A stretch of 64,000 nucleotides of DNA from Dictyoglomus thermophilum H-6-12 (lineage in GTDB: Bacteria; Dictyoglomota; Dictyoglomia; Dictyoglomales; Dictyoglomaceae), in assembly GCF_000020965.1 (NCBI RefSeq), contig NC_011297.1, positions 1,646,525-1,710,524 of the forward strand, in the 5' to 3' direction. The position numbers were made by a program, and so were the translations under genes. The notes below the pieces were generated by a model. That model made no database searches. It was not told the DNA's origin and saw only the letters and a list, made by a program, of their open reading frames with translations. Shown in pieces: positions 40,168-42,100 of this stretch; position 1 is the first letter of the stretch, and the number at the start of each line of letters is the position of its first letter.

Positions 40168-41256
40168 TTAGAATCCAATCATTAACTTGCTTTCTGCGAA
40201 GAATTTGCCTCTTACATCTACACCCCAGAGATCATCTGCACCAGTTAGTACTCCTCTCTGCCATCCATTGTTACCATAGTCATCCATGTCAAAGCCATAA
40301 CCAAGAGTCAAGTCATGGGATACATTACCACCAAGGCTGACAGACCATTTTGCAAATCCACCAAAGAGAGTATCTGGACCATTAGCTACTGCAGCACCAT
40401 AGGATAAGCTTCCTACTGGGACTGGTGCAGATCCAGAAACATAAGCAAATATGGTGTAAGTGTTAGAAGTATCATACTCTGCATATGCTTTTACGTTGGG
40501 CACTACGCCATCAGCAGTAACTGATAATTTTACTGTTTGAGCTTGAAGTTTATAGTTACCATCTACTGTAACTTTTCCACCGAGAGCTTTTACTGTTGCA
40601 CCAACAAGTTGCTCAGGATTGCTTGCTGCCTCACCATAAACAGTTAAGGATACAGGAGTGGTTACTGGTGTTACAGAACCACCAACTGCCCAAGCAGTAA
40701 TTGTTCCTGTCGCAGTATTCTTTTGAATTAAACCATAGGCAGAAACAGAAACTGGTTGAGCTACGGATACTTCACCTTTTACGGCAAGAGCTGCCTCGGT
40801 CCAGAAATTGGACTTCCCCCAATTATTTTTTGGAGCATAACCTACAGTAACTTTAACGGGTGCTTGAGATAATACTACGTTAATTCCTGTATCTGGTAAA
40901 ATATCTGGTACTAATATTGTGCTAATATCTGGAAGGGTTCCCTTGCAGAAGGATATATCAAGAAGCCCTGCTACTTTGGAGAAGGTGATGGTTCCAGTTG
41001 GAGCTGCACTACCACTCAAATCATTTGGTAAATTCACTTTGAATGTAGCATTTACGCTACCAAGGTTGGAGCTTCCAGAGAGAGAGAATGTTAAATTACC
41101 AGAGCCCCAAGTTCCCCATGCAAGACCATAGCCATCAGAGAATGGTAAAAATCTTGTATGGAAACCTACTCCTATCCAACTTGATGTGCTAACATTAGCA
41201 GCAAATGCAGGAACTACTAAAAGAGCTAAAACTAACAACCAAACCAATTTCTTCAT
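40168..41256 (-). CDS. exported beta-barrel-like outer membrane protein
   Basis: A 362-residue protein with a clear signal peptide (KKLVWLLVLALLVVPAFA, cleavage about residue 19). The mature part is rich in Gly, Ser, Thr and Val, with alternating beta strands throughout and no cytoplasmic-type helix. It ends in KLMIGF, a C-terminal Phe as in many outer-membrane barrels. Base composition is more GC-rich than its neighbours, as expected of a highly expressed gene. Its strong promoter, structured leader and terminator also suggest abundance. I do not recognise the family; a porin is likely but unproven. Confidence 0.75.
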   Translation of the reverse strand: MKKLVWLLVLALLVVPAFAANVSTSSWIGVGFHTRFLPFSDGYGLAWGTWGSGNLTFSLSGSSNLGSVNATFKVNLPNDLSGSAAPTGTITFSKVAGLLDISFCKGTLPDISTILVPDILPDTGINVVLSQAPVKVTVGYAPKNNWGKSNFWTEAALAVKGEVSVAQPVSVSAYGLIQKNTATGTITAWAVGGSVTPVTTPVSLTVYGEAASNPEQLVGATVKALGGKVTVDGNYKLQAQTVKLSVTADGVVPNVKAYAEYDTSNTYTIFAYVSGSAPVPVGSLSYGAAVANGPDTLFGGFAKWSVSLGGNVSHDLTLGYGFDMDDYGNNGWQRGVLTGADDLWGVDVRGKFFAESKLMIGF

Positions 41257-41308
41257 CTTTCCTTGACCCCCTTAGGATTTTTTAATTTTTTATAAATTTT
41301 TATAACTC

Positions 41309-41394
41309 ACTGGTAAGTTCCGAAATCTTCCCTTACCAGTCTGCCTTTCTTGAGTGGCACCTAAAGGTCTCCTCTTCACCTCCTTTCTTGCCAC
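41309..41394 (-). ncRNA. structured 5' leader with two hairpins and a possible leader peptide
   Basis: In the minus-strand leader, GTGGCA...TGCCAC (41394-41389 with 41359-41354) encloses AAAGG/CCTTT, with the ribosome-site-like AAGGAGGTGA in its loop. A second hairpin ACTGGTAAG/CTTACCAGT (41340-41332 with 41317-41309) follows. A 17-codon frame from GTG 41360 to TGA 41307 has GAGGAG eight bases upstream and runs into the second hairpin. The structures match no riboswitch class I know. Confidence 0.45.
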
Positions 41395-41418
41395 CCAGAA
41401 AAGCTTTAACTGATTGTT

Positions 41419-41446
41419 ATTTTACTAAAAATCTCTTTTATGTCAA
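41419..41446 (-). promoter_or_regulatory. promoter of the outer membrane protein gene
   Basis: TTGACA (41446-41441), a 16-base spacer and TAAAAT (41424-41419) on the minus strand predict a start near 41412, giving a leader of about 155 bases that holds both hairpins. Confidence 0.65.
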
Positions 41447-41500: not shown

Positions 41501-42100
41501 ATGTCAAATAGATTATTGAGCAAAAAACAAAAAGAAGTCTTAGAATTCATAACCTCTTTTTGGAAAAAAGAGGGAAGAATTCCCACTGTAAGAGAGGTTA
41601 CCAAAGCTCTTGGCCTAAATTCTTCAGGATCTGGATACTTCCACATGAAAGCCCTTGTAGAAAAGGGATATCTATCTCAGGATAAAAATGGTAGATTTTA
41701 TTTAAAAAACCTAATAAACGAAGAGGTAATCTATCTTCCCTTAATAGGTACCATAAGAGCAGGAATACCAGTAGAGTCTCCTGAATATATAGAAGAATAC
41801 ATTCCTGTTCCTAAAAATTTTGTAAAGATTCCTGAAAAATCCTTTTTATTAAAGGTCAGAGGAGATAGTATGGAAGGAGCTCATATATTAGATGGAGATC
41901 TTATTATCGTACAAAAACAAGATACAGCCCAAAAAGGAGAAATTGTAGTAGCTCTAAAGGATGGAGAATCTACCGTAAAATTTCTTTCCGAAAACTATGG
42001 AATACCCTGTTTAAAACCTGCAAATCCCAGATATTCAGAGATATATCCTCCTTTTAAAATAATTGGAAAAGTAGTTGGAGTAATAAGGCTTTTCAAATAA
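41501..42100 (+). CDS. lexA: LexA repressor
   Basis: A 199-residue SOS repressor/self-cleaving serine peptidase. N-terminal winged helix (SKKQKEVLEFITSFWKKEGR), cleavage site Ala-Gly in LIGTIRAGIPVE, catalytic Ser in GDSMEGAHI and catalytic Lys in ESTVKFL. RecA filaments trigger its cleavage and induce DNA-repair genes. No ribosome site precedes the ATG, which sits about three bases from the predicted transcription start. I did not find a classical LexA palindrome here, so the operator of this lineage is unknown. Confidence 0.95.
   Translation: MSNRLLSKKQKEVLEFITSFWKKEGRIPTVREVTKALGLNSSGSGYFHMKALVEKGYLSQDKNGRFYLKNLINEEVIYLPLIGTIRAGIPVESPEYIEEYIPVPKNFVKIPEKSFLLKVRGDSMEGAHILDGDLIIVQKQDTAQKGEIVVALKDGESTVKFLSENYGIPCLKPANPRYSEIYPPFKIIGKVVGVIRLFK

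Follow-up and report, generated by a model that had tools for sequence, protein, structure and literature searches.

The closest described counterpart of the element reported here is the STAB-SD of the Bacillus thuringiensis cry3A leader, reportedly described by Agaisse and Lereclus in 1996. Docking of the 30S subunit at this start-less Shine-Dalgarno (SD) sequence, which blocks RNase J, is presented as an established device (PMC4113751). For stabilizing Gram-positive leaders such as ermC and atpE, the common determinants are given as occlusion of the 5′ end and/or a strong SD, even one without a start codon (PMC3997798). A distant ribosome landing site with another role is described for tisB, where the 30S subunit lands at a standby site about 100 nt upstream, there is structure near the 5′ end, the ribosome-binding site is sequestered and the landing region is single-stranded (PMC7708055). 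In cellulolytic clostridia, internal terminators are described as setting the stoichiometry of solute-binding protein to translocator, and how binding proteins come to exceed transporters is called unclear (PMC9045158).

The leader analyzed here shares with the cry3A element, as that system is described, a strong, non-translating SD about 120 nt upstream that is complementary to the 16S tail, RNase J in the organism and an abundant protein product (abundance presumed here). It differs in that the SD lies in a conserved hairpin followed by a second hairpin, the organism belongs to another phylum, stabilization is what we infer, and the motif recurs class-wide ahead of genes for exported proteins. 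Unlike ermC and atpE as summarized in PMC3997798, it combines both devices and is conserved across a family. The tisB likeness extends to a landing site about 100 nt upstream and structure near the 5′ end, but here the ribosome-binding site is predicted open and the landing site is a perfect SD. The clostridial terminators address the same problem of binding proteins in excess over translocators, but with a stem-loop downstream of the binding-protein gene instead of a start-less SD upstream. The best-supported reading is that the leader is probably a Bacillus STAB-SD-type element, displayed on a hairpin and part of a class-wide signal for exported high-demand proteins. If this holds, the STAB-SD idea would cover not just single leaders such as that of cry3A but a class-wide signal in a phylum of diderm thermophiles, and a start-less SD, found by a motif and a distance rule, would offer a testable and portable answer to binding-protein excess. 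We found no earlier report of a start-less SD class before exported-protein genes in the open-access literature searched.

Promoter, leader and downstream gene

The leader lies between lexA and the gene for a 362-aa protein (Table 1). It covers about 155 nt of the minus strand, from near 41412, where we infer that transcription starts, to the ATG at 41256. The predicted −10 element ends 33 nt upstream of the SD motif.

Table 1. Coordinates of features in and around the leader
Feature	Position	Strand	Basis
lexA	41501–42100	+	Pfam LexA and S24 peptidase matches
Predicted sigma-70-type promoter, TTGACA-N16-TAAAAT	41419–41446	−	11/12 consensus positions; conserved in 7-genome alignment
Hairpin P1, outer stem and weak inner stem, bearing the start-less SD	41343–41404	−	MFE; pairing across genomes
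Start-less (decoy) SD AAGAAAGGAGGTGA, 14 nt complementary to 16S rRNA 3′ tail	41376–41389	−	16S 3′ end from antisense matches
17-codon GTG frame, judged not functional	41307–41360	−	Length not conserved; start codon changed in 5/7 genomes
Hairpin P2, 9 bp in this genome	41309–41340	−	8 counted bp paired in 7/7 genomes
Main ribosome site CCTAAGGGGGTCAA	41263–41276	−	Invariant in 7/7 genomes; predicted accessible
362-aa protein, signal-peptide-like start, predicted beta-barrel outer-membrane protein	40168–41256	−	Structure model; no Pfam match

The minimum free energy of the 167-nt leader is −45.9 kcal/mol; shuffled sequences average −29.4 kcal/mol (z −5.2), and none of the 200 is equally stable. 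The two stable hairpins that had been proposed for a leader of about this length are P1 and P2. Neither they nor the SD-like sequence can be put down to chance; the GTG frame can. At gathering score, Rfam finds one tRNA in the window (the whole 64-kb stretch of DNA analyzed) and no match near the leader. The best Rfam match of the leader region has an E-value of 0.18 and 19.2 bits against a cut-off of 219, and matches up to E 5 are at chance level. This agrees with the earlier statement that the leader matches no known riboswitch class, and a known riboswitch is rejected. Opening of the main SD is predicted to cost 0.6–3.6 kcal/mol in the 7 leaders, with a predicted mean unpaired probability of 0.48–0.81 at 37, 60 and 73 °C. 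An RNA thermometer acting on the main SD is rejected, the site being predicted about half or more open at all three temperatures.

The AlphaFold2 model of the 362-aa protein is modest (mean pLDDT 62.4, pTM 0.51) and all-beta, and it aligns with outer-membrane barrels with Z-scores of 13–16. The original prediction of an outer-membrane protein (OMP) behind the leader is supported by this barrel-like model and by the signal-peptide-like start; the protein is presumably abundant.

The start-less Shine-Dalgarno sequence

The motif AAGGAGGTGA is located at 41385–41376 inside P1. The 16S tail, read from antisense motif matches at two 16S genes (L038 and L046), is UCACCUCCUUUCUU, so the longer segment AAGAAAGGAGGUGA (41389–41376) is a 14-nt complement. 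The anti-SD of Dictyoglomota is listed as ACCUCCUUU (PMC10783764). The core AGAAAGGAGGTGA is identical in 7/7 leaders, and the preceding base is A in 5 and G in 2. An ideal SD had been described in the loop of the first hairpin. The SD is there, but it is not simply displayed by the loop, as part of it pairs in the weak inner stem. Its mean unpaired probability in this genome is 0.43 at 37 °C and 0.55 at 73 °C. The predicted duplex with the anti-SD is −22.8 kcal/mol for the decoy and −11.4 kcal/mol for the main SD, and opening the decoy costs 5.8–8.8 kcal/mol at 37 °C and 3.5–5.8 kcal/mol at 73 °C. Because of these values, the decoy is by prediction the stronger 30S landing site of the mRNA. 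It lies 119 nt from the ATG, and no start codon follows it within the spacing range for initiation in this genome.

Conservation of the leader in Dictyoglomaceae

A full-length leader is found in all 7 Dictyoglomaceae genomes searched, this one (G000) included, with E-values from 8e-86 to 8e-24. The 34 other genomes in the search yield only short matches, AT-rich or SD-like, the best of them with E 0.002. G000 itself holds no second copy of the whole leader, its next matches being fragments with E 0.006 or worse. The decoy core, the main site and most bases right after the −10 element are invariant in the 7-leader alignment. In P1, its inner stem and P2, 96.8% of pair cells are standard pairs, a value that 0 of 500 shuffles reaches, and slid-structure controls are at most 51.6% paired. 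The covariation score is 0.118 versus 0.068 for shuffled alignments. Compensatory changes occur in 5 cells, with double changes in only 2 of 23 pairs; one pair in P2 is U-A in 4 genomes and C-G in 3. The lower stem of P1 in G004, where MAFFT misaligns this genome, has a different sequence and still pairs. The covariation check suggested along with the original prediction thus comes out in favor of the fold: pairing appears to be kept through compensatory changes, which in seven related sequences is supportive, not overwhelming.

Leader identity to G000 is 75–94% across the relatives. The G003 leader has 92% identity, and residues 1–20 of its protein match those in G000 exactly, while the whole protein is 32% identical. 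In G004 the values are 75% for the leader and 38–40% for the protein. Because leader identity stays at 75–94% while that of the protein falls to 32% and 38–40%, the leader is constrained independently of the mature protein: what is kept is the leader itself, and no partner specific to the message, for example the mature protein, accounts for the constraint.

The G003 locus (L010:1667-2698), compared with 40168–41256 of the window, looks as if the mature OMP had been exchanged while the leader and signal peptide stayed in place. A divergent OMP paralogue in G001 (L060:1498-2481) is flanked by two genes resembling secreted carbohydrate enzymes; with only 28% identity to the protein of G003, it is not the obvious source of the swap.

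Proposed mechanism and alternative explanations

We consider it fairly likely that the leader represents a start-less SD stabilizer in a structured form particular to Dictyoglomaceae, acting through 30S docking, RNase J blocking and a long-lived mRNA. A 30S subunit would be recruited by the 14-nt SD in P1, close to the predicted 5′ end, and could not initiate, because no start codon lies at a usable distance. The docked subunit and the hairpins near the predicted 5′ end would then block 5′-to-3′ decay by RNase J, and the OMP mRNA would be long-lived and translated from its own accessible site. As modeled, the leader combines both determinants of stabilizing leaders, 5′-end occlusion and a strong SD. 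As in a STAB-SD, a 16S-complementary SD lies far up the 5′ UTR; judged by its sequence it does not direct translation, with no start in range and no conserved frame nearby; and the host has RNase J (TIGR00649, above cut-off in 5/5 Dictyoglomaceae searched). Points against this stabilizer include the partial pairing of the decoy in P1 and, in the class described below, the near start codons at 6 of the 32 far sites, the far sites located between operon genes and the 6 of 13 solute-binding-protein genes of G000 with weaker duplexes than −14 kcal/mol. Among the three roles first offered for the leader (mRNA stabilization, protein binding and attenuation by a leader peptide), the evidence favors the first, with stabilization as the putative outcome.

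The docked subunit could instead serve initiation. A 30S subunit that first lands on the far SD and then moves along to the main site would raise initiation and not stability, and this ribosome standby reading draws on the resemblance of a docking site about 100 nt upstream to that of tisB (PMC7708055) and on the stronger predicted duplex of 16S with the decoy than with the main site. Standby is needed, however, where the true site is sequestered. In all 7 leaders the main site is open by prediction, which disfavors a standby role, and P2 intervenes between the two sites; we regard this explanation as unlikely. In another scheme, binding at the decoy would close the true site: the loop segment GACCUUUAGG would have two alternative partners, the decoy SD within P1 and, by forming a pseudoknot, the stretch CCUAAGGGGGUC at the main SD. 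The complementarity is present in 7/7 genomes (duplex −12.0 to −16.3 kcal/mol) and survives a one-base deletion in G004, but it is not better than in dinucleotide shuffles (p 0.06–0.63) and the main-site segment is invariant, leaving no covariation to be read. Such a translational switch seems quite improbable.

The conserved hairpins and invariant loop bases would also suit a binding site for a regulatory protein, sRNA or ligand (autoregulation or riboswitch). The 16S complementarity already accounts for the conserved loop, however, the SD motif recurs in leaders of unrelated sequence, Rfam gives no match, and CsrA, the obvious GGA-in-loop binder, is not found in the 5 Dictyoglomaceae searched; the positive control was recovered in 3/14 known genomes, including E. 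coli and B. subtilis. A CsrA target is rejected on this search of 5 genomes, and binding by a regulatory protein, an sRNA or a ligand we hold to be very improbable. The attenuator has the least to offer. The 17-codon GTG frame does exist in this genome with a ribosome site of its own, as had been noted, but at the equivalent start codon, which is TTG in 5/7 genomes, the frames are 17, 8, 8, 10, 5 and 3 codons long and run on through the leader in G004. The putative GAGGAG ribosome site occurs in this genome alone of the 7, and no terminator-like site was found on the same strand between promoter and gene. With the frame conserved in neither length nor start and the terminator missing, we reject a leader-peptide attenuator and give it next to no credence.

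Far start-less sites before exported-protein genes

The original prediction dealt with a single leader. Its SD-like sequence holds up there, and it also turns up in leaders that otherwise differ in sequence, forming a class ahead of exported-protein genes that the prediction had missed. There are 23 copies of AAGGAGGTGA in G000. We classified 118 sites, all those of G000, G001, G004 and G006 (G002, G003 and G005 lie outside the count): 61 are ordinary ribosome sites, 32 are far sites, and the rest are antisense to 16S, coding (L086, L118 and L149 were set aside as such) or unassigned. Counted in the far set are four OMP leaders, as well as two sites in tandem at a single gene. Each member precedes, by 45–126 nt (213 nt in one case), a gene that has a ribosome site of its own, and only 6/32 have a near start codon in a short window after the motif. 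Signal-like or membrane N-termini, called by a hydrophobicity rule and not by SignalP, are found for 30/32 far-site genes and 14/61 ordinary ones (Fisher p 1.7e-11, inflated by orthologous, non-independent sites). Far-site conservation between orthologues is biased, because the motif itself served to select the sites; only for the OMP leader did the search not depend on the motif alone. In three control genomes (G016, G017 and G028), 3 of 15 AAGGAGGTGA sites are called far by the rule; by eye none of the 3 has a signal-like N-terminus, and at least two have a near ATG after them.

We scanned 24 of the far-site proteins: 16 belong to several families of solute-binding proteins and 2 are ammonium transporters, with one each of alkaline phosphatase, SLH-domain coiled-coil protein, fn3/CBM protein and glutamine synthetase; 2 have no match. 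The far sites show no single preferred distance from a promoter. Several sit between operon genes and not at a predicted 5′ end, so a simple 5′-cap role cannot cover all of them.

Some individual sites have features of their own. L105/L106 (G004:C2:188748-188770) is a tandem pair of perfect AAGGAGGTGA motifs, 3 nt apart, upstream of a solute-binding-protein gene. At L069 (G001:C1:509961), a far SD is followed by a short frame, truncated and signal-like, that is apparently the remnant of a gene for a secreted protein, and then by a GntR-like regulator; the site was scored as non-signal, the rule having taken the later gene at 213 nt although the nearer frame is visible. At L066 (G001) and L103 (G004) the motif adjoins CRISPR-repeat-like sequence (GTTTCAATCCCTTATAGG...GCTACAAAC), and because of this both motifs are probably in spacers. 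L129 (G006:C1:50721) is a far SD upstream of an SLH-domain coiled-coil protein that may resemble an OmpM-type outer-membrane tether.

Converse test from solute-binding-protein genes

In the converse direction, genes were chosen by family (PF01547, SBP_bac_1) and not by motif, and the best SD-like duplex at −28 to −160 was counted as a far SD at or below −14 kcal/mol. Loci dropped for want of a signal-like start were L160, L165, L206, L218, L210, L226 and L248, and some search matches received no locus. In G000, 7/13 usable SBP_bac_1 genes reach −14 and the other 6 are weaker, compared with 0/41 other window genes and 1/14 neighboring genes in the same loci, that one signal-like. In G033, which belongs to another family and is related only at the domain level, 11/11 solute-binding genes (loci L189–L217) reach the threshold and 0/10 neighbors do. 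The remaining 21 genomes give 7/64, with 4 of the 7 in the GC-rich G025, and 5/64 pass the shuffle test at 0.02. The far-SD device is not universal, because so few genes in these 21 genomes carry it.

A start-less SD, usually without a hairpin, marks many exported-protein genes, above all those of solute-binding proteins, and where it lies between the genes of a permease and a binding protein, it would shield the part of the operon mRNA that encodes the binding protein. More tentatively, and with some doubt, we propose that start-less SDs may constitute a regulatory class of their own, present in Dictyoglomota as well as in at least one further lineage. Lying 45–150 nt upstream of solute-binding and exported genes, including inside operons, they would park 30S subunits to shield the mRNA and set the excess of binding proteins over transporters, and the OMP leader would be a specialized, hairpin-displayed form. 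For intercistronic far sites, shielding of a processed downstream segment is a better fit than shielding of a primary 5′ end. The far SD of the G033 genes and of some G000 genes comes soon after the end of a long upstream frame and so can be intercistronic.
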